Assembly: GCA_024278345.1 (NCBI GenBank)
Contig: JAJRTK010000164.1
Coordinates: 1-14,278, forward strand
Source of the DNA: a bacterium
GTDB lineage: Bacteria > CSSED10-310 > JAJRTK01
Reading direction: 5' to 3'
DNA: 14,278 nucleotides
Part shown: positions 557 to 13,693 of the stretch, piece after piece
Layout: each line of letters begins with the position of its first letter
Numbering within the stretch: position 1 is the first letter of the stretch
The notes under the pieces: model-generated
What the model saw: the letters and a program-made list of their open reading frames with translations, nothing else
Databases searched by the model: none
What the model was told of the DNA's origin: nothing
Made by a program: the position numbers and the translations under genes

Positions 557-622
557 ATGGCGAGAGCGGCGACAATGGCGAGTGGCGGCGGACGGATTGC
601 CGTCGCCGCGAGCGGAACGTAA
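557..622 (+). CDS. Possible 21-codon leader peptide
   Basis: A near-perfect Shine-Dalgarno AAGGAG sits at 541-546 but is not well placed for pssA. The ATG at 557, 10 bases after it, opens a 21-codon frame ending at TAA 620-622, 26 bases before the pssA start. The predicted peptide is Ala/Gly-rich with no recognisable motif. Most of it lies in the 55-bp dispersed repeat, so it may be an accident of repeat insertion behind an old ribosome site. If translated, it could couple leader structure to pssA expression. Low confidence that it is a real gene. Confidence 0.2.
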   Translation: MARAATMASGGGRIAVAASGT

Positions 623-631
623 CCCAAAGAA
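577..631 (+). repeat. 55-bp dispersed repeat, copy A
   Basis: This stretch matches the reverse complement of 4550-4604 over 55 bases with only three differences that I can count. It contains an imperfect GC-rich hairpin (GCGGCGGACGG against CCGTCGCCGC around an ATTG loop). It lies in the pssA leader and stops just before the pssA ribosome site. That argues that codons upstream of 649 in the pssA frame are not part of the protein. Confidence 0.75.
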
Positions 632-636
632 TGGTA

Positions 637-641
637 AAGGA
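637..641 (+). promoter_or_regulatory. Ribosome binding site fixing pssA start
   Basis: AAGGA lies 7 bases before the ATG at 649. Upstream in-frame ATGs at 538, 547 and 631 have no properly spaced site, and 631 falls at the end of a dispersed repeat. Confidence 0.6.
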
Positions 642-648
642 TGAAAGC

Positions 649-1287
649 ATGGAGCGATTGCCGCCATTGCGAAGATTCTTCAACCTGCCCTGCGCCGTAA
701 CGATGAGCGGTCTTTTCTTTGGCCTCGCGTCGGCGGTTTTGTCGGTCTCGGGACAATTCCGGCTGGCGATGGTCGCCCTGATTGCCGCTGGACTTTCGGA
801 TCTGTTCGACGGATTCGTGGCGCGGCTATTGGATCTGTCGGACGAAGAGAAGCGGTTTGGCGAACAGCTTGATTCCCTTGTGGATGCCTGTTCGTTTGGG
901 ATGGCTCCAGGCCTCTTTCTGGTTTGCCGGGGATTTCGCTCCGCACCCGAACTGGCACTCGTTGGTTTTTACTTGGCGGCGGTGGTCTGGAGACTTGCCT
1001 ATTTCAATGCCTTCGCCATGGAGATGACCCACAGGGACGACACCTATCGCGGGCTTCCCGTCACCTTCGCCGCTCTCTTTTTTCCCTTGGGATACCTGAT
1101 CGACCTCGTGCGCCCGGACTGGGTCGAGCCCACCCTGGCCATCCTTGCGTTTGGTGCGGCCTGCCTCATGTTGAGCCCATTGCCGGTGAAGAAGCCGCGG
1201 GGAAAATGGTACGCGGTATTCGCGGCATCGGCGGTCATCGTGACGATCCTCTTTTTGACGGCGCGCAGCGGATCAGGGCAGGGGTGA
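649..1287 (+). CDS. pssA: CDP-diacylglycerol-serine phosphatidyltransferase
   Basis: Integral-membrane enzyme of the CDP-alcohol phosphatidyltransferase family. It makes phosphatidylserine from CDP-diacylglycerol and serine, the precursor of phosphatidylethanolamine. The signature is complete in the 212-residue protein: D54-G55-x2-A58-R59, then G71-x3-D75-x3-D79. The spacing from AR to G is 11 residues instead of the classical 8, a variant I recall in other bacterial PssA proteins. Several hydrophobic segments follow (about 15-52, 90-115, 130-150 and 160-205), as expected for six membrane helices. The ATG at 649 is chosen for its ribosome site and because the upstream frame runs through a repeat. 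The downstream gene starts 8 bases after the stop, so they are probably co-transcribed. No psd gene is visible. Serine as substrate is the commonest case, but other acceptor alcohols cannot be excluded from sequence alone. Confidence 0.85.
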   Translation: MERLPPLRRFFNLPCAVTMSGLFFGLASAVLSVSGQFRLAMVALIAAGLSDLFDGFVARLLDLSDEEKRFGEQLDSLVDACSFGMAPGLFLVCRGFRSAPELALVGFYLAAVVWRLAYFNAFAMEMTHRDDTYRGLPVTFAALFFPLGYLIDLVRPDWVEPTLAILAFGAACLMLSPLPVKKPRGKWYAVFAASAVIVTILFLTARSGSGQG

Positions 1288-1295
1288 AAGAGTCG

Positions 1296-4025
1296 ATGTT
1301 GAAATCTCAGACCATCTTCAGAGGAGGAAACTGTCCCAAAAAGGCGGAGCTTCTTGGCGGGAAGGGGTTTGGCTTGGAGCGGCTTACTCGGGCCGGATTG
1401 CCGGTGCCCCGATGGATCTGCCTGACCCCGGCTTTCTTCCAGGATCTTCCACGGGAGTTCACGGAGAGCCTTGCCGGCCTGACCCCGCCAGACGGAAGCT
1501 CCAATAGCCGGTATCTTCAAGAGATGAGCATCCGAGTAGGATCGCTCATCCGCGAGCAGGGCGTCGGAGCCTGCCAGTGGGAAATGCTCCGAGACGCCGT
1601 GAGCGAACATCTGAGGGGAAAAAGTTTTGCCGTGCGCTCATCGGCTCTTGGCGAAGACGGTGCCAGGGCTTCCTTCGCGGGCCTGATGGACAGCTTTCTG
1701 TGCGTGCCTCTTCAAGATCTTCCAGAGAGGATTCTTCGTTGCTACGCATCAGCCTGGTCGGCCCGTGCCATGGCTTATCGCCTTCGGCGGGGCTTCGGCA
1801 TCACATCCATCGAGAGCGGCGTTGTCATTCAGGAAATGGTGGATGCCCGGGCTAGCGGAGTCATGTTCACGGCCGATCCGCGGAGCGGTGGGGAAGACCG
1901 GTTTGTCATCGCGGCCGCTCTGGGCCTGGGAGAAGGGGTTGTCGCCGATCGTGCCCAGGCGGATGAATACGTTCTCCAGAGGCTCGATGGCAAGGTCCTG
2001 GAAATGAGCATTGCCAAGAAGAAACAGCGCATCAGCCCAACCGATGGCGGAACACAGATCGAGGAAGTTCCCATGGCTGTGGCCGACGTGCCCTCTCTTG
2101 GGGATGAGGAGTTGAGGCAGCTCCACGGCTTGGCCCTTCAGGTGGAAGCGGCACTCGGCACCGGCCAGGACATCGAGTGGTCCATGGATCACCGGGGAGA
2201 GCTCCATCTCTTGCAGGCTCGGCCCATCACCTTTCTTCCGCCAGGGCATGTCCGGGTCTTCGACAACACGAACATTATCGAGAGCTATCCAGGAGTCACG
2301 ACGCCGCTCACTTTTTCCTTTGTCCGCGGCGCCTACGAAATCATCTTTCGTCAGTCGGCTCGGGCCTTCGGCGTGCCAGAGCCGGTCATTGCCCGGGAAC
2401 AGGCCCTCTTTGCAAACATGGTGGGCTTCCTCAATGGGCGTATCTACTACAACATCTTGAATTGGTACCGCTTGTACGGCCTGATTCCCGGATTCGAAGG
2501 CCGCCTGGAGGCGTGGGAAAAATCGCTGGGGCTCAGCGGGAGAAGCCTGAAGGGGCAAGCTCGGGAGACAGTGACTTTTTCCTGGTTCAGCCAACGGTTG
2601 GCCCAGGTCCGTGTTGTCATCCGGATCATCCGGAACTTTTTTCGGCTGGAATCGGAGATCCGGGCTTTCGATGGAAGATTTCGACAGGTCCAGGAAGATT
2701 TTCAGAAGCTGGATCTCGAAAGCTGCTCTGCTGATGACCTAGCGGACCTCCACGATTCCCTCGTCCAGAGGCTCCTTTGGAAGTGGGAGGTGACGACGCT
2801 CAACGATTTTTATGCCTTCAATTTCTACGACCTGGCAGAGCGATTGCTCCAGAAGTGGGGACTGGAGGGAAAAGGGGTGCGCATCAACGACCTGGTAGGC
2901 GGTGAGACAGGGATGCAAAGCCTTGAACCCCTCCAGTCGGCTCTCGATTTGGCCAAGAGCATCCGCGCCAGCTCCAGCCTGCGCGCCACTTTGACCAGCG
3001 ATGCCAAACCCGACGCCATCTGGCGCGACCTCATGTCGGGAATAAGTCCGGCGGCCTTTCGCCACGCTCTTTCTGAGCATGTTCAGCGGTTCGGTGACCG
3101 AACTCTTCATGAGCTGAAGCTCGAGACACCGGCGCTGGAGGACGATCCAAGCTTTTTTATCCAGACGCTCCGGCGGTACGTGGAATCTCCGCCGGATCTC
3201 GTGGAGACCCTTGCTGGCGAGAGAGCCCAACGCGCACGGGCGGAAAAAGCTCTACGGGATTCCCTCCGAGGTCATCCCCTAAGACTTCGGATCTTGAAGT
3301 TTGCCCTTGGTCAGGCACGCATCGGCCTCAAGAACCGGGAGAATCTACGCCTGGCACGTTCCCGGGCCTTCGGCATCGTGAAACGGATCTTCGGAGCCAT
3401 GGGAGCGAAGCTGGCACGGGCCCAAGCCCTCGACTCCCCCCGGGACATCTTCTTCCTGGGAGCGGACGAGATTCTGGGATTCCTTCGAGGCTCATCGATG
3501 ACCCTCGATCTCCGGGCGCTGGTCAAGATCCGGCGCGCCCAGCACACGGCTTGGAAGCTGTCAGACTCCGCGGATCGGATTCGAACCCGAGGGATTGTCT
3601 ACGGCAACCTGCTTCGGAGCAGAGCCACTGCCGAGTCAGCCAAACCCACGGAAACGGCCGGTCACGATCTCCAGGGAATCGGCGCCTCCTCTGGCCGCGT
3701 GACGGCACCTGCCGCCGTTGTCATCGACCCAGAATCCGCAGAGCCAGAGAGCGGCGCGATCTTGGTGGCGCCCATGACCGACCCCGGCTGGGTCTTTTTG
3801 ATGGTCTCCGCCGCTGGCCTTGTAGTGGAGCGGGGCAACCTGCTTTCTCACACGGCGATCATCGGCCGTGAGCTTGGAATCCCCGTCGTCATCGGCCTTT
3901 CTGAAGCGACCAAGACGATTCGAACAGGCCAGAAGATCGAAATCGACGGCGCATCGGGAACCGTCCGGATTCTTGCTGAACCCAACGAGACAAGCGAACC
4001 GAAGAAGTCAACGGAACCAGGCTGA
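1296..4025 (+). CDS. PEP synthase/rifampin phosphotransferase-like enzyme
   Basis: A 909-residue protein with an N-terminal PPDK/PEP-synthase ATP-grasp domain (about 15-305). It shows the G-rich loop GGKGFGLERL, AVRSSALGED with Arg114, GVMFTADPRSG, and the closing motif QDIEWS (291-296) followed by LLQARPIT. A long helical middle of unknown role (about 310-765) follows, then a C-terminal swivelling phospho-His domain with His852 in LLSHTAIIGRELGIP. The PEP/pyruvate-binding TIM barrel of true PEP synthase is absent. This order and length match rifampin phosphotransferase (about 865 residues), where ATP charges the His and the phosphate passes to a substrate held by the middle domain. The middle begins with a stretch I recall from uncharacterised family members (FDNTNIIESYPGVTTPLTFS), so an antibiotic substrate should not be assumed. 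The start could be the ATG at 1296 or a GTG at 1284 that overlaps the pssA stop; either implies coupling to pssA. Family is firm, substrate unknown. Confidence 0.8.
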   Translation: MLKSQTIFRGGNCPKKAELLGGKGFGLERLTRAGLPVPRWICLTPAFFQDLPREFTESLAGLTPPDGSSNSRYLQEMSIRVGSLIREQGVGACQWEMLRDAVSEHLRGKSFAVRSSALGEDGARASFAGLMDSFLCVPLQDLPERILRCYASAWSARAMAYRLRRGFGITSIESGVVIQEMVDARASGVMFTADPRSGGEDRFVIAAALGLGEGVVADRAQADEYVLQRLDGKVLEMSIAKKKQRISPTDGGTQIEEVPMAVADVPSLGDEELRQLHGLALQVEAALGTGQDIEWSMDHRGELHLLQARPITFLPPGHVRVFDNTNIIESYPGVTTPLTFSFVRGAYEIIFRQSARAFGVPEPVIAREQALFANMVGFLNGRIYYNILNWYRLYGLIPGFEGRLEAWEKSLGLSGRSLKGQARETVTFSWFSQRLAQVRVVIRIIRNFFRLESEIRAFDGRFRQVQEDFQKLDLESCSADDLADLHDSLVQRLLWKWEVTTLNDFYAFNFYDLAERLLQKWGLEGKGVRINDLVGGETGMQSLEPLQSALDLAKSIRASSSLRATLTSDAKPDAIWRDLMSGISPAAFRHALSEHVQRFGDRTLHELKLETPALEDDPSFFIQTLRRYVESPPDLVETLAGERAQRARAEKALRDSLRGHPLRLRILKFALGQARIGLKNRENLRLARSRAFGIVKRIFGAMGAKLARAQALDSPRDIFFLGADEILGFLRGSSMTLDLRALVKIRRAQHTAWKLSDSADRIRTRGIVYGNLLRSRATAESAKPTETAGHDLQGIGASSGRVTAPAAVVIDPESAEPESGAILVAPMTDPGWVFLMVSAAGLVVERGNLLSHTAIIGRELGIPVVIGLSEATKTIRTGQKIEIDGASGTVRILAEPNETSEPKKSTEPG

Positions 4026-4374: not shown

Positions 4375-4549
4375 CACGCTCCCGTTTCTTTGGAAACATG
4401 CCGACACAAGCAGACAAATAGCGGCCAGCAAACCGCCAACGTGCCCATCGCCCCCCCCTGGATTGGCGCTCTGTCCTAAAAACGCACCACAAACCCCGGT
4501 TTTTGTTGTGGGACTCCTGCAGGGCATGATTGAAGCAAACCACTCTCTT

Positions 4550-4604
4550 TTCTTTCGGTTGCGTTCCGCTCGCGGCGCCGGCAATCCGTCCGCCGCCACT
4601 CGCC
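4550..4604 (-). repeat. 55-bp dispersed repeat, copy B
   Basis: Inverted relative to the copy at 577-631, with three differences over 55 bases. It lies upstream of the 90-residue gene, again in intergenic DNA. It is followed 12 bases later by the first 37-bp direct repeat, so the two repeat families may be nested or have accumulated at one site. Confidence 0.75.
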
Positions 4605-4616
4605 TTCCTTAGCTTC

Positions 4617-4653
4617 CCTCTGGGGCGCGAGTCCTGGTAGGGTTCTTTTGAGG
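4617..4653. repeat. 37-bp direct repeat, unit 1
   Basis: Identical base for base to 4689-4725. It begins CCTCTGGGGCG and ends TTCTTTTGAGG. The period is 72 bases with a 35-base spacer. With only two units, a nearby cas locus missing and one odd spacer, this is not a CRISPR array. Confidence 0.85.
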
Positions 4654-5639: not shown

Positions 5640-5711
5640 TGGGCCGTGCTGGATTTGAACCAGCGACTTCTACCGTGTGAAGGTAGCACTCTCCCACTGA
5701 GTTAACGGCCC
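5640..5711 (-). tRNA. tRNA-Val(CAC)
   Basis: A full 72-nt cloverleaf. The 7-bp acceptor stem is GGGCCGT with ACGGCCC plus discriminator A. The D stem is ACTC/GAGT. The anticodon stem is CTACC/GGTAG with loop TTCACAC, placing CAC at 34-36, which reads GUG (Val). The T arm is GCTGG/CCAGC with loop TTCAAAT. The 3' CCA is not encoded. It lies 39 bases after the glutaredoxin-like gene on the same strand and has its own promoter-like pair and terminator. All stems pair without mismatch. Confidence 0.93.
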
Positions 5712-5754: not shown

Positions 5755-6062
5755 GAAAAGGACAGCGATTCCAAAAGTTCCTCCAAGGCTGCGAGAAAGG
5801 GCCGGGTGGACAGCCTGTGGCGAAACAGCACTCGATCCCGAAATGCCAAGACGGGAATCTCGTAGCGATAGAGATCCCACCATTTGCCATTCTGCGTGAT
5901 ATCCCGCTCTTCCAAGGAGATGGGGAGGTTTTGAGCGACTTTCTGGATCACGGTCTTCATTTTGTGGCAAAGACGGCAGTTCTCCTTAGTGTAAAATACG
6001 AGCTCAATGCACGGGATTCCCTGCCGCAGCATCAGATTGCGGATTCTATCCACGGGTTCCAT
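5751..6062 (-). CDS. Glutaredoxin-like thiol protein
   Basis: A 103-residue thioredoxin-fold protein. The first strand, ELVFYTKENC, leads to a CRLC active site (Cys29, Cys32) on helix 1. The EIPVLAF segment supplies the conserved cis-Pro loop, and the helical end matches the short glutaredoxin-like family related to DUF836. Such proteins are presumed cytoplasmic disulfide reductases, but substrates are mostly unknown. The start is uncertain: ATG at 6062 overlaps the dehydrogenase end by 17 bases, ATG at 6074 by 29, and neither has a strong ribosome site, so translation is probably coupled. It is the last protein gene of the FHA-dehydrogenase unit. Confidence 0.75.
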   Translation of the reverse strand: MEPVDRIRNLMLRQGIPCIELVFYTKENCRLCHKMKTVIQKVAQNLPISLEERDITQNGKWWDLYRYEIPVLAFRDRVLFRHRLSTRPFLAALEELLESLSFS

Positions 6063-7032
6063 TTTCGTTTTCATCCCAACGGTGAATTCTCGCGGAAATG
6101 AGGCCGTCGATCTCACTGGCAAGGCTGAGTGCGGCCAGAGCTCGCCGGCCATTGACCCTTGGTGCCGCCTTCTTGCGGACGGTATCGACAAAGCTCTCGA
6201 TTTCCCGCTTCAAGGGCTCTCCCTCCTGGACTTCGAGACAGACTGGCTTAATTTCGGGCACTCCTTCGTTGTTTTGTCGGCGTTCGGCACATTCCACCGA
6301 GCGTTCCAGGAAATCGATCCGGACGTAGCGATTTTTCATGAAGAGCCGAAAACGGCGTTGGGGCCGCAAGCTGACGCGGCTGGCGGTGAGATTCGCGATA
6401 GAACCTCCGGGAAACTCTAGCCTCACACTGGCCATGTCGATCCGTGAGCTGAGAACGGGAATGCCGATGGCGTGAACTAAATTGGGTTTTTCGCCCATCC
6501 AGTGGAGGACGAAGTCAAGATCGTGGATCATGAGATCGGCGACCACATCGACATCAAGACTTCGGCCACTAAAGGCGCCAAGACGATGAGCCTCGATAAA
6601 ACGGGGCTTTTCAATCAGGTGCCGGCAGGCTTCCAGGGCTGGATTGAATTCCTCCACGTGCCCGATCTGGAGGATGGTTTTCGTCGCATCCGCTTCCTCC
6701 ACAAGAACCTGAGCATCTGCTTGTGTGGCGGCAATGGGCTTTTCCAGAAGGACCGGGATCTGGCGCCGGAGGAATGGGATCGCCACCGGCCGGTGGGTCG
6801 ATGTGGGAGTGGCGATGGAGACGAGATCGATCCGGCTCCGGAGCAGAGACTCGATGGAATGGTGGAAAGAAACCTTGCCCGGCCCCAGTTCCAGATTCTT
6901 GAAGGCTCCGTCATGGATATCGACGACCCCGGAAAGCTCGATTCCGGGCATTTGGGAGTAAATGCGGGCATGGTGGCGACCCAGGTGCCCGACGCCCACC
7001 ACCGCTGCTTTCAGAGTCTCGGGAAGCGGCAT
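6046..7032 (-). CDS. Gfo/Idh/MocA NAD(P)-dependent dehydrogenase
   Basis: A 328-residue oxidoreductase. An N-terminal Rossmann fold has GVGHLGRHHARIY (13-25). The conserved EKPIA motif (Lys98) ends the nucleotide domain. The C-terminal domain has GHVEEFNPAL (124-133) and DLMIHDLD with Asp166 and His170, the usual catalytic positions. The family oxidises or reduces sugars and sugar nucleotides. Its place three genes from lpxD and two from lpxA recalls GnnA, the UDP-GlcNAc 3-dehydrogenase that, with aminotransferase GnnB, supplies a 2,3-diamino sugar for lipid A in Acidithiobacillus and Leptospira. No GnnB is in the window, and similar dehydrogenases sit near lpx genes in many genomes, so the substrate is open. 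The ATG has AAGGA seven bases upstream, overlapping the stop of the FHA gene. Confidence 0.85.
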   Translation of the reverse strand: MPLPETLKAAVVGVGHLGRHHARIYSQMPGIELSGVVDIHDGAFKNLELGPGKVSFHHSIESLLRSRIDLVSIATPTSTHRPVAIPFLRRQIPVLLEKPIAATQADAQVLVEEADATKTILQIGHVEEFNPALEACRHLIEKPRFIEAHRLGAFSGRSLDVDVVADLMIHDLDFVLHWMGEKPNLVHAIGIPVLSSRIDMASVRLEFPGGSIANLTASRVSLRPQRRFRLFMKNRYVRIDFLERSVECAERRQNNEGVPEIKPVCLEVQEGEPLKREIESFVDTVRKKAAPRVNGRRALAALSLASEIDGLISARIHRWDENENGTRG

Positions 7033-8453: not shown

Positions 8454-9311
8454 CTAACCGGGATTCTCCTCCCGCGGAGGCGCTACACCAAATCCCGCCG
8501 ACCATTCGCCCGCTGCCCGCCTGCCACTTTTTCGCCGACGCAGGAGCCCCCGGTGAGAGGTGCGGACAAACTTGAGAATCTCCGTGGCCAGCGGATCATC
8601 GGAACCGGAGCAAAGGGATTCCAGTTCTTGCTGGATGGGAACTCTGGATTCAAGGAGCTTGCGGTAGAGTTCCCGTACGTGTTCGATCTTCTTTGGGGAG
8701 AATCCGTGTCGCCGGAGCCCTATGGCATTGTAGTGGAGGAGCTCCGCACGGTTTCCCGCGGCGAGGCCATAGGGTAAAATGTCCCGATCCACTGCCGAGC
8801 AGCCGCCAACAAATGCGTAACGACCGATCCTAGCGAATTGGTGGACTCCGCTCAGGCCGCCCACAGTGGCGTGATTGTGGAGCTGGACGTGGCCTCCTAG
8901 AACTGCTCCTGAAGACAAGACGCAACCATCGCCAATCATCACATCATGAGCGATGTGGCAATGGGACATGATCAGGTTCCCCGAGCCGACGGAAGTCCGG
9001 CCTCTTCCAGCGGCGGTTCCCCGGTGAATTGAGGTGTACTCCCGGATACAGTTTTTGTGGCCAATCTCCAGAGACGTCTCTTCCCCGGCGTACTTCAGAT
9101 CCTGGGGTGGCAGGCCAAGAGCCGTGTGGTGGTACACGTGGTTTTCGGAGCCCAAAGTCATGGGACCTTGGAGTATGGCATGGCTTTCGATTGTACAATC
9201 TGGACCCAAACAGACGGCACCCTCGATCATCACGTAGGCGCCAATCCGGCACCCCGAAGAGAGCTCAGCCTTCGGATTGATTTGGGCAGTGGGATGGATC
9301 ACCACGGACAT
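8454..9311 (-). CDS. lpxA: UDP-GlcNAc O-acyltransferase
   Basis: First enzyme of lipid A synthesis; it moves a 3-hydroxyacyl chain from acyl carrier protein to UDP-GlcNAc in the cytoplasm. The 285-residue protein has an N-terminal left-handed beta helix of hexapeptide repeats (about 5-190), with family landmarks DLKYAGE (71-77), [11 protein letters not shown] (89-99) and HIAHD, where His122 matches catalytic His125 of E. coli. [14 protein letters not shown] and GLRRHGFS follow, then a helical C-terminus. A basic tail of about 30 residues makes it longer than the E. coli protein (262). The ATG at 9311 is preferred (AAAGG nine bases upstream) over ATG 9338, which has no site; it overlaps lpxD by 47 bases, indicating coupling. 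The adjacent dehydrogenase leaves open a 3-amino sugar substrate. Confidence 0.93.
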
Positions 9312-10350
9312 CGGGGTCGCCTTTCCCTGAGAGTTCATTGAGGAGTTTCTGCATGGACAGGAGCCGCTGCCACATGCGAGGAAGTCGCTTCCTCAATGCC
9401 ACCATACGCCTCCAGGCTTCCATGGGGATCGCCGGCCAGCCGCCCACGATAGCGCCCGGAGCAACATTTCCTACAACTCTGGACGCTCCGGCAACAACGG
9501 CGTCAGGACCAATAGAAAGGTGTCCAGCTACGCCAACCTTGCCGGCCAAAACCGCCCGGTCGCCGATCCGAACACTCCCCGAGATCCCTACCTGAGCGAT
9601 GATGAGGCAGTCTTCACCAATTCGGACATTGTGGGCGATGTGGACCAGGTTGTCAATTTTCGTGCCGCGACCGATGGTCGTCTTCCCCATCAGTCCGCGA
9701 TCAATGCAGCACCCGGCCCCAATCTCCACATCGTCGCCGATTTCCACGATCCCCACGTGCTTGAGCGGGATGTGCTGAACGCCCTTGGAGACGTAGCCGA
9801 ATCCCTCAGAACCAATCACCGTGCGACTTTGGATGCGGACGCGGCTTCCTAGAGCGACCCCATCGAGGAGGGTGACACCTGGGTCCAGCCTGCAATCCCG
9901 CCCAACAGTGACACCACGACCCAAAAGAACACCGGCGCCAAGGCGGGTTCCTTGGGAAATCTTGGAACCCGGCCCCACGACGCAGGCCGGACCGATGGAG
10001 ACGTTCTTGTGGATCACGGCTCGCTGATGAACGGTGGCGCTGGAGTGGACTCCCGGTTTCAACGATGAATCGGGGAAAAAAAACTCAAGACAGAGTCCCA
10101 AAGCCCCGCGCGGGTCGTCCACCAAGACCTGGGCCGCCTGGCAAGCTTCAATCTTCTCTTGGGTCAACAAAGCGCCGGCACGGCTACGGGAAGCGGCTGA
10201 GAAATAGCCTTTCCCCGCCACGAAGGAGATCTCCTTGGGGCCAGCGTCATCGAGGCTGGCCACTCCCTCGAAAGAAAGATCGGGCGAACCGAACATCCTC
10301 CCGCCCACCAGTTGGGAAAGCTGCCGTAGAGTCATCTGGCGACCGGTCAC
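9265..10350 (-). CDS. lpxD: UDP-3-O-acyl-glucosamine N-acyltransferase
   Basis: Third step of lipid A synthesis: adds an N-linked 3-hydroxyacyl chain to UDP-3-O-acyl-glucosamine. The 361-residue protein has an N-terminal uridine-binding domain (about 1-100, with [13 protein letters not shown]), a hexapeptide-repeat left-handed helix (about 101-315), and a C-terminal helix ([20 protein letters not shown]). The catalytic motif is [11 protein letters not shown] with His240, equivalent to E. coli His239; the second conserved His is in AGHLSIG. It starts at GTG 10350, which shares its G with the skp TAG stop and has GGAAG six bases upstream; ATG 10335 lacks a site. The last 30 or so residues look extra and overlap the lpxA start. 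lpxC and fabZ, often between lpxD and lpxA, are absent here. Confidence 0.93.
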
Positions 10351-10886
10351 TAGCGGCTTCCGGATTTGTCATAAAGAGCGATGATCTTGTCAGTCACTTC
10401 AAGCTTGGGATCGACATAAAGAACCGCATCCGATTCCCTCTGAAACAGGAAAGAATAGCCATTCTCTTTGCCGAATCGTTCGATGAGCCTGGAAACATCC
10501 CGGTTGATCTTTTCCAAAAGCTGGTTTCTGCGCTTTCGGAGGTCGCGATCGGAATCCTCAAGCAACCGTTTGAGCTTGATTTCCATTTCCTGGATCCGTT
10601 CCGCCTGGATCTTCTTGGCGTCGTCGGTCAGGGTAAACTGCTGGGCTTCAAACTCCTTTTTAGCCTTGAGGAGCTCCTGTTCTTTGTCACTGATCTCTTT
10701 TTGCCGGGCCTCTTGGAAGCTCTTGATCTCCGCGATACCAGCTTTTCCGGCCTTGGAGTCGAAGACGATTTTTTGGAGCACCACATACCCGATCTTGGGC
10801 GCCTGACCCGCCATCACGATTGCGGGGGTCATGAAAACGGCGGCCGTGAGGGCCAGCAGTCTGATGAACGCGGTTTTCTTGAACAC
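10350..10886 (-). CDS. skp: Periplasmic chaperone Skp/OmpH family
   Basis: Periplasmic chaperone that holds unfolded outer-membrane proteins for the BAM machinery. The 178-residue protein has a signal peptide (KK at 3-4, hydrophobic 8-24, cleavage likely after VMA at 26), then IGYV and a short beta part. Two long charged helices (about 50-135) should form the coiled-coil tentacles of the trimer, with a closing beta segment ([15 protein letters not shown]) and a final helix. Length is close to E. coli Skp. The GTG start at 10886 has AGGAG six bases upstream and gives a clean signal peptide; the frame extends upstream, but those residues are Arg/His/Pro-rich and unlike the family. It lies downstream of bamA after a 214-base gap and overlaps lpxD by one base, the standard order bamA-skp-lpxD. 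Confidence 0.9.
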
Positions 10887-10892
10887 GGTCTT

Positions 10893-10897
10893 CTCCT
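10893..10897 (-). promoter_or_regulatory. Strong ribosome site fixing skp GTG start
   Basis: AGGAG within GAAGGAG, six bases before GTG 10886, is the best Shine-Dalgarno in the envelope cluster and decides a non-ATG start immediately ahead of a signal peptide. Confidence 0.75.
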
Positions 10898-10920
10898 TCG
10901 ACAATCCATGGTCACGGTGG

Positions 10921-10956
10921 AAAAAAGGGCACGCCTGGAGGGCAAAAAAACCAGGC
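10921..10956 (-). terminator. Weak terminator or attenuator before skp
   Basis: On the minus strand GCCTGG (10956-10951) pairs with CCAGGC (10938-10933) across a 12-base T-rich loop. Six bases later comes TTTTTT (10926-10921). The gap and long loop make it a poor intrinsic terminator, but it lies in the only long gap of the bamA-lpxA run and could reduce read-through into skp. Confidence 0.3.
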
Positions 10957-10979
10957 CAACGCCGATGAAAAGGCGAGCA

Positions 10980-10995
10980 GCGGGCGTGGGCCCGC
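10980..10995 (-). other. GC-rich hairpin in bamA-skp gap
   Basis: GCGGGC and GCCCGC form a perfect 6-bp stem with a 4-base CCAC loop. It lies 24 bases upstream of the weaker T-rich hairpin in the same transcript. No T-run follows directly. It could be an RNA processing or stability element. No convincing promoter was seen in this 214-base gap. Confidence 0.35.
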
Positions 10996-11100
10996 GCACG
11001 ATGGGAGCGGAAAGCAACACAAAGAAAAACGAGCCGGCTGAAACTGAGGTCGCCGTCAGGGAACATCATCCTCGGATCCAGGGATGAGAAAAGGGAATGG

Positions 11101-13686
11101 TTAGAATGTCGTTCCAATGGAAAAAGTGAAGTCCGAAGGGTCTTCGTTATCCTTTTTGTCGAGCTTCCAGCCCCAAATGAAGCGGATGGGAACCCAGAAT
11201 TGGGGGATGAAGAAACGCACCTCTATGCCTGCGCTTTTCCGCATATCAACCAGATCGTAGGGTTCATCTTCGGAATAGACGTTTCCGGCATCGAAAAAGA
11301 GCACCAGCCGAAGGGGATCAGCGATGGGCACGATGAATTCCGTGTTGAGTAAGAGCTCCTTGTTTCCACCAAGGTTGTCCCCGTTCTGGTTCAGCGGTCC
11401 CACGGAGTAGTTTTCGAATCCCCGGATTGAGCGCTCTCCTCCCAAACGGTACCTTTCAAAAAAGGGAAGCGAGTGCCCTCGAAAAGATCCTGCGTATCCC
11501 GCTCTTGCGCGAATTGCAAACGTGAGCTTTCCCGCCACGGGAAAATAGCGCACCGTCTGTGCCTGGACCTTGAAGTAATTGTTGTCACCGCCAAGAACAT
11601 ACCCGGCCAATTCGGTGGAGAGGTAGGTCGATGATCCCAGGGAGGGGTCGCGAGCGTTGTTGAGGGTGTTCCTGGAAGCGCTGAAGGTGACGCTGGAGGT
11701 GGACGAGATGCCTTCCAGCTCGAGAAGGTTGAGATTCGCTTCATTGGAATCGAACTCTGAAAGCGATGTCACCTGGTAACCGTAACTCATGCGCGCTTGA
11801 AAGCGCTCGAAAAGATGGCGACCAAAGGTGAGCCGAGCGCCGGTTCTTTTTTCCCGAAAGTTCCGATAGGTCGTGGGGGATCGCTCGAACCGGAAGAGAT
11901 TGGCTCCGACGGCGTACCTCGAGTCGAACAGGTAGGGTTCTGAAAAGGAGAAATCGTAGTTTTGACTTCTCTGGCTAGCTGAAACCGATAGACTCACGTT
12001 TTGACCGTACCCAAGGAAGTTGCGCTCGGCAATGGAGAGTGTCCCAAAAAAACCATCGACGGAGCGGAAGCCGCCGCCAAACTGGAATTCAGTCTGGCGT
12101 GTGTCGTTGAGCTTGATTTTGATGTCGAGGTCTCTCCGGTTTTCCGTCGGCTGGACATCTGGCACCAGCTCGGTGATATACCCCAGAGCTTGAATTCGGC
12201 TCAAGCTGTACCGGAAAAGGCTTGACTTGAAGACGTCCCCCTCCAAGATTCGCAGCTCCCGGCGAAGCACCTTGTCGCGAGTCCTAGTGTTTCCTTCGAA
12301 TTCAATACTTCGCACGTAGGCGACGCGATCCTCCGAGACAGTAAACTCGATGTCCACGATGTGATTCTCGCGGTCCAGTGTCCGTTTCGGGTAGACGTTG
12401 GCATAGATGTACCCGGCATTTCCGTAGAGATCCTGGATGTTGCTCATGGCGGTTCGGAGAGCTTCGAGGCTGAACCAGTCGCCTTCTCGCAGCACTTTCT
12501 CTTTTTTCGTCAAGATCCCTTTCTGGATCGCCCGCTCCTTAGAGGGCCTTGCTAGGGCTCGCAAGACAACTTCATCTTTGAAAACCTCGTTGCCCGCGAC
12601 GGCGAGCTTGCCGACGCGATAGCGAGGCCCTTCTTGAAGCGGCATCAGCAAGTGGAGCCGCTTGGGGAGTTCTTTGATCTTTTCTGGGGACTTGCCCTTG
12701 GCAATCCATTTTTCCCGCCGCTTGTCATCGAGGATCGTCAACTTGGGTTCTCCGATCTTGACTTCCAAGAACCCCTTGTTGACGTAGAACTCCTTGAGCG
12801 CCACCAAGTCCTCTTCAAGCCCTTCGGGAGTGAACTTCCCCGCCTTGGACAAGAAAGAAAAAAACCAGTGTTCGCGGGTTTTCTTCAGTTTTCCCTTGAG
12901 TCCCCGGAAGCGGTTGCCTGCAGGGAAGGACTCATTGCCCACGAATTCGATCTTCTCGATCCGGATCTTGTTGCCTTCGTCCACTTCAAAGACGACCCGT
13001 GACTCTTCATCGTAAATCGCCTGGATGACCGGACGTACCGTCACATAGTAATAGCCGTTTTTGACGTATTCCCCCCGTATCTTTTCCGCGGCCTTTTGAA
13101 GAGCCTTGGGCTTCACGAGAGCCTCAGGCTCAAGCTCGATGAGCTTGAGGAGCTTTTCTTTGGAAATCGAGTGATTTCCCACGATCTCCACGTTCCGGAG
13201 CGCTGGCTTTTCGACGACGACCACCATGAGTTTGACTTTGGAGTCATCGCGTTTTCCCACGATGGCCACGTTGTCAAAAAAACCGCTTTCGAAGACAGCC
13301 GTCAAGCCTCCTTGGAGGCGAGTCAGTGTGAGTTTTTCCCCCACCCTCAACCCAAGCTTGAAAAGCACTGTTCCAGGGTCGATGCTTTGAGTGCCCACCA
13401 CTTGAATGTTGGCGATCTCAAGGCCAATTAAGGCTGAGACATCCCCCGGTCGCCACTCTTCGATGAGGGCCGAACTGTCGAACTTTTTTGCGCCGTCGTC
13501 TGAAGCGGCTTGTCCCAAAGCCGAAGATTTGGGGCTCTCCGCCGGCGGCTGGCCGGCACTCTGATCAGGAAGACCGAGGAACGGGAAGAGCAGAAAGGCG
13601 ATGAGGAAACGTGGAGGTAATCCCCGTCGCACAACATCGACACCACCACGCCCGCCAGCCCATCGGATCGCTCTATCAACCGACAT
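11101..13686 (-). CDS. bamA: Outer-membrane protein assembly factor BamA
   Basis: Essential Omp85 protein that inserts beta-barrel proteins into the outer membrane. The 861-residue protein starts with a long signal peptide (basic N-region to about 26, hydrophobic FLIAFLLFPFLGLP) and a Ser/Ala-rich linker to about 88. Five POTRA domains follow, each opening with a strand and a VGN or EGN-type turn (about 90, 162, 243, 358 and 460), then a 16-strand barrel from about 540. The diagnostic SIRGF motif (RGF) is in the barrel, and the C-terminus FTFSIGTTF is a beta-signal ending in Phe. POTRA3 has a charged insertion (REKWIAKGKSPEKIKELPKR). ATG 13686 has GGTGGAG seven bases upstream. It follows clpC by 18 bases and precedes skp. 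Confidence 0.95.
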   Translation of the reverse strand: MSVDRAIRWAGGRGGVDVVRRGLPPRFLIAFLLFPFLGLPDQSAGQPPAESPKSSALGQAASDDGAKKFDSSALIEEWRPGDVSALIGLEIANIQVVGTQSIDPGTVLFKLGLRVGEKLTLTRLQGGLTAVFESGFFDNVAIVGKRDDSKVKLMVVVVEKPALRNVEIVGNHSISKEKLLKLIELEPEALVKPKALQKAAEKIRGEYVKNGYYYVTVRPVIQAIYDEESRVVFEVDEGNKIRIEKIEFVGNESFPAGNRFRGLKGKLKKTREHWFFSFLSKAGKFTPEGLEEDLVALKEFYVNKGFLEVKIGEPKLTILDDKRREKWIAKGKSPEKIKELPKRLHLLMPLQEGPRYRVGKLAVAGNEVFKDEVVLRALARPSKERAIQKGILTKKEKVLREGDWFSLEALRTAMSNIQDLYGNAGYIYANVYPKRTLDRENHIVDIEFTVSEDRVAYVRSIEFEGNTRTRDKVLRRELRILEGDVFKSSLFRYSLSRIQALGYITELVPDVQPTENRRDLDIKIKLNDTRQTEFQFGGGFRSVDGFFGTLSIAERNFLGYGQNVSLSVSASQRSQNYDFSFSEPYLFDSRYAVGANLFRFERSPTTYRNFREKRTGARLTFGRHLFERFQARMSYGYQVTSLSEFDSNEANLNLLELEGISSTSSVTFSASRNTLNNARDPSLGSSTYLSTELAGYVLGGDNNYFKVQAQTVRYFPVAGKLTFAIRARAGYAGSFRGHSLPFFERYRLGGERSIRGFENYSVGPLNQNGDNLGGNKELLLNTEFIVPIADPLRLVLFFDAGNVYSEDEPYDLVDMRKSAGIEVRFFIPQFWVPIRFIWGWKLDKKDNEDPSDFTFSIGTTF

Positions 13687-13693
13687 GCACACA

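Follow-up and report, generated by a model that had tools for sequence, protein, structure and literature searches.

A rifampin-phosphotransferase-like dikinase beside pssA belongs to a conserved bacterial lipid gene module

Introduction

What would an enzyme built like an antibiotic-inactivating kinase do beside a gene of phospholipid synthesis? This question is raised by a stretch of bacterial DNA of 14,278 nucleotides (contig JAJRTK010000164.1, here called the window), in which a pssA-like gene is followed at once by the gene of a protein, PPS1, that resembles rifampin phosphotransferase (RPH). Our analysis points to a role in lipid metabolism. We estimate at roughly 0.6 the probability that PPS1 is an RPH/PigC-type dikinase of non-standard membrane phospholipid assembly, phosphorylating a lipid precursor that is used by a UbiA-family protein and then by CarS, PssA and phosphatidylserine decarboxylase (PSD).

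PPS1 has the layout, fold and catalytic residues of rifampin phosphotransferase

Both pssA and PPS1 are genuine, uninterrupted genes. The pssA stop codon TGA occupies positions 1285-1287, and PPS1 starts either at an ATG at 1296, leaving a gap of 8 bases, or at an in-frame GTG at 1284, overlapping pssA by 4 bases (GTGA). A previous sequence-only reading of the window had given this spacing in both forms, and both starts were found in the sequence.

That reading had also described PPS1 as an ATP-grasp domain joined to a swivelling phospho-His domain, with His852 as the phosphate carrier and no phosphoenolpyruvate (PEP) barrel. Pfam matches confirm the two domains (Table 1), a Pfam scan gave no match to the PEP-barrel domain anywhere in the protein, and His852 corresponds to His825 of Listeria monocytogenes RPH. 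The long middle domain, which had been left as unknown, was resolved by comparing an AlphaFold model (built from 54 sequences; mean pLDDT 87.8) with the Listeria enzyme (5hv1). A total of 795 residues could be aligned (PPS1 3-894; 25% identity, Z 36.8), and because this match runs from end to end the middle domain is a homologue of the rifampin-binding domain. The overall root-mean-square deviation of 17 Å is ascribed to a mobile domain arrangement.

The middle domain is mostly helical and bears the sequence R681-E682-xx-R685. Arg666, Glu667, Lys670 and His825 of Listeria RPH align with R681, E682, R685 and H852 of PPS1, respectively. In RPH, Arg666 and Glu667 place the phospho-His and the phosphate, mutation of either abolishes rifampin inactivation, and the acceptor pocket is chiefly hydrophobic (PMC4844700). 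R681, E682 and H852 are invariant across 115 sequences, 80 of PPS1 orthologues and 35 of a second, paralogous dikinase, PPS2. Nine residues (K23, R114, D292, E294, Q307, R309, R681, E682 and H852) are common to PPS1, PPS2 and Listeria RPH. With the same order of three domains, a full-length fold match and the catalytic residues of both the ATP side and the acceptor side in place, the RPH layout proposed earlier is well founded. One difference lies near the acceptor site: R688 is invariant in PPS1, replaced by Ser in 34 of 35 PPS2 sequences and by Met in Listeria RPH, a weak hint from sequence that the acceptor of PPS1 might be anionic.

Family profiles place the protein outside every named function. 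Its best full-length NCBIfam match, at 706 bits, is the model 'PRK06241.2-2' (NCBI name PEP synthase); this score excludes a chance likeness and is still below the cut-off of 883. The scores against the RPH model (RIF_Ptrans_rph, NF041857; 299 bits, cut-off 999), PEP synthase (TIGR01418; 250 bits, cut-off 739.75) and the prodiginine ligases PigC and RedH (321 and 337 bits, cut-offs 1300 and 1350) are also too low. Since the layout fits but all the family scores fall short, we assign PPS1, by layout and catalytic residues, to the RPH mechanistic class of dikinases and to none of its named members. PEP synthase is ruled out by the missing barrel and the low score.

In an approximate FastTree tree, PPS1 and PPS2 form separate groups except for one long-branched PPS2, and RPH lies outside the supported PPS1 clade. 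This position, the 299 bits and a set of conserved partners that are lipid genes (see below) all speak against PPS1 being a rifampin phosphotransferase that inactivates an antibiotic and stands beside pssA by accident; despite the shared layout and catalytic residues, we find that explanation scarcely credible, the least probable of those considered here. A PADLOC search gave no match to a defence system, and a resistance role for PPS1 is unlikely.

Two Streptomyces proteins fall inside the PPS1 group of the tree. On Streptomyces plasmids (L131 4669-9423 and L132 8399-13734), a PPS1-like gene stands in a run with an AfsA-like gene and a gene for an ICMT-like methyltransferase, which places these enzymes in a cluster of gamma-butyrolactone type. 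In S. clavuligerus the run is also followed by a gene resembling UbiA, which scores 116 bits with the HMM (hidden Markov model) of the UbiA partner described below.

PPS1 is embedded in a lipid gene module

The neighbourhood of PPS1 was analysed in 80 loci, taken from one scan of 84,980 genomes, by clustering the neighbouring open reading frames and by HMMs. These loci span at least nine phyla, and 72 of them have at least one lipid gene near PPS1. The neighbours are a UbiA-family protein (the F1 partner; 63 loci), a tandem GNAT protein (the F2 partner; 47), a CarS-like CTP transferase (40), PPS2 (38), PSD (36), and PssA (24) or another CDP-alcohol transferase (8), 32 in all. A lipid module is thus well supported, and the same set of genes is found in the genome of the window. 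The lipid role that the sequence-only reading had preferred to an antibiotic one is thereby upheld.

The composition of the unit, on the other hand, differs from the pair that had been proposed. When surveyed across genomes, the steady neighbour of PPS1 is UbiA, which in 53 cases lies within 200 bp and has the same orientation. The usual dikinase next to PssA is PPS2, which adjoins it in Bacillota (19 loci, with a gap of -7 to +66). We therefore rejected pssA plus PPS1 alone as the conserved unit, in favour of the wider module.

Gene order varies with the phylum. The Bacillota operons (for example L053, L064, L065 and L075) read CarS - PPS2 - PssA - PSD - UbiA - PPS1 - GNAT, often with an AMP-binding acyl ligase next, and their stop and start codons mostly overlap or almost touch. 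The Desulfobacterales order is PPS2 - TamH-like - UbiA - DUF3419 - PPS1 - GNAT - PSD, and in Bacteroidota it is often UbiA - PPS1 - HMG-CoA-reductase/APH fusion - CarS - ICMT/PEMT - CDP-alcohol transferase. The F2 partner, which is without a Pfam match, is a tandem GNAT by its fold (AlphaFold pLDDT 90.6; Z 21 to glucosamine N-acetyltransferase). The F1 partner keeps the first aspartate motif of the UbiA family as D81-[DE]-x-K-D85-x-E-x-D89 (canonical ND..D...D, with N changed to D), and has E211..R214-K215, without exception in 21 of 21, in place of the second.

Three side observations concern these loci. The fusion of an HMG-CoA-reductase-like domain with an APH kinase adjoins PPS1 and UbiA at L041 (8495-10900) and other Bacteroidota loci, and its substrate may differ, because the usual reductase motif DAMGMNM reads NASGQNM. 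DUF3419, a BtaA-like domain of betaine-lipid type, is found beside PPS1 in Desulfobacterales and in some Planctomycetota and Bdellovibrionota (L027 4776-5891, L034 8526-9581 and others). Plasmids of Peptoclostridium and Ilyobacter carry PPS-like genes as well, without lipid neighbours.

PPS1 and UbiA also tend to occur in the same genomes. In the window's phylum, PPS1 and the UbiA relative share the same 2 of 8 genomes. Among 148 Clostridia genomes, PPS1 is present in four and UbiA (F1) in three, all three among the four; we calculated by hand a chance of about 8 × 10−6 for this overlap, or 3 × 10−4 without the genome used as centre. UbiA was present somewhere in 22 of 27 PPS1 genomes that had been picked mostly because it was not obvious beside PPS1, and four of the five genomes without it belong to Clostridia, sampled for the most part from gut or rumen.

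The module in the genome of the window

In this genome, which is 88% complete, core pieces of the pathway lie on three contigs. Besides PssA and PPS1 in the window, contig C517 (L089) carries CarS, UbiA, an MMPL-type transporter and a GNAT, and contig C235 (L095) carries PPS2, a TamH/PigE-like fusion of a class III transaminase and an acyl-ACP reductase, a LolA-like protein and PSD. The PPS2 and TamH-like genes share the bases ATGA. The two other genes with the PPDK_N domain (on C397 and C275) were left out of the module because in the alignment they have neither the catalytic His nor the Arg-Glu motif, and they lack lipid neighbours.

The PssA of the window matches PF01066 above the cut-off (51.9 bits) and carries the CDP-alcohol phosphatidyltransferase motif D..DG..AR...G...D...D, with the catalytic motif DLFDGFVARLLDLSDEEKRFGEQLDSLVD intact. 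Both of its best NCBIfam matches stay under their cut-offs: archaetidylserine synthase at 83 bits against 240, and pssA (TIGR00473) at 75 bits against 107. Among the eight CDP-alcohol transferases of the genome, it is the closest to the PssA family of the operons (168 bits by HMM versus 100 for the next).

On C517, the genes for the hydrolase, CarS, UbiA and the MMPL transporter are immediately preceded by a gene of the exosortase family and another, small open reading frame (L089 7402-8485, +); a link between protein sorting and the lipid of the module is conceivable.

Proposed role of PPS1 and competing explanations

By homology to RPH, PPS1 would transfer the β-phosphate of ATP to His852, releasing AMP and Pi. 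The phospho-His domain would then swing to the middle domain, where R681 and E682 would hand the phosphate to a hydroxyl group of a hydrophobic acceptor. We favour a lipid precursor in this place because the RPH pocket is chiefly hydrophobic, the nearest partner is the integral-membrane UbiA and the downstream genes make an ethanolamine phospholipid from a lipid phosphate. Judged by this context, candidate acceptors are fatty alcohols, prenyl-like alcohols and unfinished alkyl or acyl glycerols. The UbiA-family protein would use the phosphorylated precursor. CarS would activate the resulting lipid phosphate with CTP, PssA would attach serine, and PSD would decarboxylate the product to an ethanolamine phospholipid, a phosphatidylethanolamine of non-standard, perhaps ether, type. 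The tandem GNAT, with the acyl ligase or the reductases, could supply or attach fatty chains.

The sequence-only reading had offered a lipid head group, an alcohol or a lipid precursor as possible acceptors. A lipid alcohol or precursor remains the best guess. The head-group reading, in which PPS1 phosphorylates a small alcohol such as serine or ethanolamine and no lipid, draws on the operons shared with PssA and PSD, but these two enzymes form the head group from free serine: as established for the family, PssA takes free serine and a CDP-lipid, and no phosphorylated serine is required. Moreover, Bacteroidota clusters keep PPS1 and UbiA without the PssA and PSD of the module. We consider a head-group substrate very improbable.

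Several points weigh against phosphorylation of a lipid precursor. The identity of the acceptor is drawn from gene context. Superfamily members of the PigC type condense their substrates and do not phosphorylate them, and the TamH/PigE-like protein belongs to the pathway in some phyla. Serine specificity of PssA is presumed from family resemblance, with NCBIfam scores under the cut-offs. As the second aspartate motif of the UbiA-family protein is replaced by E..RK, this protein may use a donor other than a diphosphate. Finally, the pathway is split over three contigs in the window's genome, so that pssA is the one pathway gene with a physical link to PPS1 there.

The main rival to a kinase reaction follows from the PigC likeness. 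PPS1 and PPS2 might transiently phosphorylate one partner and join it, in an ATP-dependent condensation, to a fatty aldehyde or amine from the TamH/PigE-like protein, and the N-alkyl or aldehyde-derived lipid would then gain its phospho-head group. PPS1 shares superfamily and domain order with PigC and RedH, whose models give it 321-337 bits. The TamH-like fusion directly follows PPS2 both in the window's genome and in Desulfobacterales, and its best NCBIfam match is PigE (313-324 bits), the partner of PigC in prodigiosin biosynthesis; PPS2 may have a similar partnership here. PigE reduces a thioester and transaminates the aldehyde (PMC8341465). PtTamH of tambjamine biosynthesis, with the domain order of the C235 fusion, converts acyl-ACP to fatty amines (PMC9594044). 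However, the Bacillota and Bacteroidota clusters are without a TamH-like protein, the HMG-CoA-reductase-like/APH fusion standing in its stead in Bacteroidota, and alpha- and gammaproteobacterial clusters have a reductase only. The PigC and RedH scores are about one-quarter of the family cut-offs, no pyrrole-pathway genes were seen, and the partners are CarS, PssA, PSD and UbiA; unlike PtTamH and PigE, the fusion on C235 is placed in a phospholipid gene set, and such a protein is confined to some phyla. We judge such a condensation unlikely and prefer the kinase reaction.

The co-occurrence of UbiA, CarS and archaetidylserine-synthase-like homologues, with PSD in one operon, recalls the archaeal ether-lipid pathway of GGGP synthase, DGGGP synthase (a UbiA protein), CarS and archaetidylserine synthase and decarboxylase. 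UbiA might move prenyl chains like DGGGP synthase, with prenols or prenyl-glycerols as the substrates that the dikinases phosphorylate, and the HMG-CoA-reductase-like protein added in Bacteroidota would suit such an isoprenoid route. It is disfavoured because 18 of 21 carrier genomes, that of the window included, lack GGGP synthase (PF01884), which catalyses the committed first step; one carrier has a clear match and two have marginal fragments. An archaeal-type pathway through this enzyme is therefore mostly rejected. In addition, the second UbiA motif is non-canonical, some clusters contain fatty-acyl reductases or an acyl ligase, and two dikinases and a tandem GNAT are added in these bacteria. 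Altogether we regard an isoprenoid pathway as decidedly doubtful.

A more speculative version of the lipid-kinase reaction would follow an archaeal-like logic, with fatty acyl chains as the starting material for ether-type lipids. The fatty aldehyde or alcohol would come from a reductase, PPS2 and then PPS1, with its extra invariant Arg688, would phosphorylate it to give an activated product, an alkyl or alkenyl phosphate or diphosphate, UbiA would form the ether bond, and CarS, PssA and PSD would complete the head group. We hold this scheme to be possible, though improbable.

Relation to known ether-lipid routes and implications

Bacterial ether-lipid routes through Ger/PlsA, ElbD (elb operon) and AGPS-like enzymes occur in similar phyla (Planctomycetota, Myxococcota, Desulfobacterota, Spirochaetota and Bacteroidota), and ElbD shares with the module the logic of a fatty-acyl reductase and an acyl ligase. 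As described (PMC9131029, PMC11868695), these routes are without UbiA, CarS or RPH-like dikinases. If the product of the module is an ether lipid, its route would be distinct from all three and would bear on which bacteria produce the ether lipids that serve as environmental biomarkers. No paper joining an RPH-like dikinase or PEP synthase with UbiA, CarS or phosphatidylserine genes was found in the open-licence literature searched, which does not disprove that one exists.

Across no fewer than nine bacterial phyla, genes that are annotated singly as 'PEP synthase', 'prenyltransferase' and 'phosphatidylserine synthase' thus form one co-inherited lipid module. Its hosts include Clostridia of the rumen and gut and, from aquatic settings, Planctomycetota and Bacteroidota. 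Part of the large and mostly unassigned superfamily of RPH-like dikinases gains a lipid context, and caution is advisable before calling such genes rifampin resistance. Listeria RPH (PDB 5HV1 and 5FBS-5FBU), one of the closest known enzymes, belongs to a separate clade with other genomic partners.

Other features of the window

Table 1. Coordinates of PPS1, its domains and other features of the window
Feature	Position	Strand	Basis
pssA-like CDP-alcohol phosphatidyltransferase, 212 aa, archaetidylserine/phosphatidylserine synthase type	649..1287	+	PF01066
PPS1, RPH/PigC-type dikinase by layout, 909 aa from ATG 1296 (913 aa from GTG 1284)	1284..4025	+	PF01326 and PF00391, RPH fold, catalytic residues
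PPS1 ATP-grasp domain (PPDK_N), residues 18-314	1347..2237	+	PF01326, 216-219.5 bits
PPS1 middle domain, putatively acceptor-binding, about residues 319-768 (approximate boundaries)	2250..3600	+	AlphaFold model, structure alignment to 5hv1/5fbs, Listeria RPH alignment
PPS1 swivelling phospho-His domain (PEP-utilizer), residues 818-888, His852	3747..3959	+	PF00391, 82 bits
Interspersed genomic repeat, immediately 5' of pssA	557..640 (approximate limits)	+	exact match of the 23-bp core, 580-602
Inverted copy of the same repeat, 3' of PPS1	4537..4625 (approximate limits)	-	core exact at 4579-4601
tRNA gene	5640..5711	-	Rfam RF00005, 69 bits
Gfo/Idh/MocA oxidoreductase	6046..7032	-	185 bits, sub-cut-off
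Outer-membrane block bamA - skp/ompH - lpxD - lpxA	8454..13692	-	
lpxA	8454..9338		
lpxD	9265..10350		

Copies of an interspersed repeat, REP/MITE-like in appearance, bracket the pssA-PPS1 pair in inverted orientation. Their 23-bp core, for which no occurrence is expected by chance (0), has more copies on contigs C235 and C321 of the same genome. The ordinary outer-membrane block marks the host as a diderm that carries genes for lipid A. The Gfo/Idh/MocA oxidoreductase resembles UDP-GlcNAc 3-dehydrogenase and is encoded near lpxA and lpxD, with an FHA-domain protein in between, which could hint at an amide-linked lipid A of the GlcN3N type. A tRNA gene completes the features listed.

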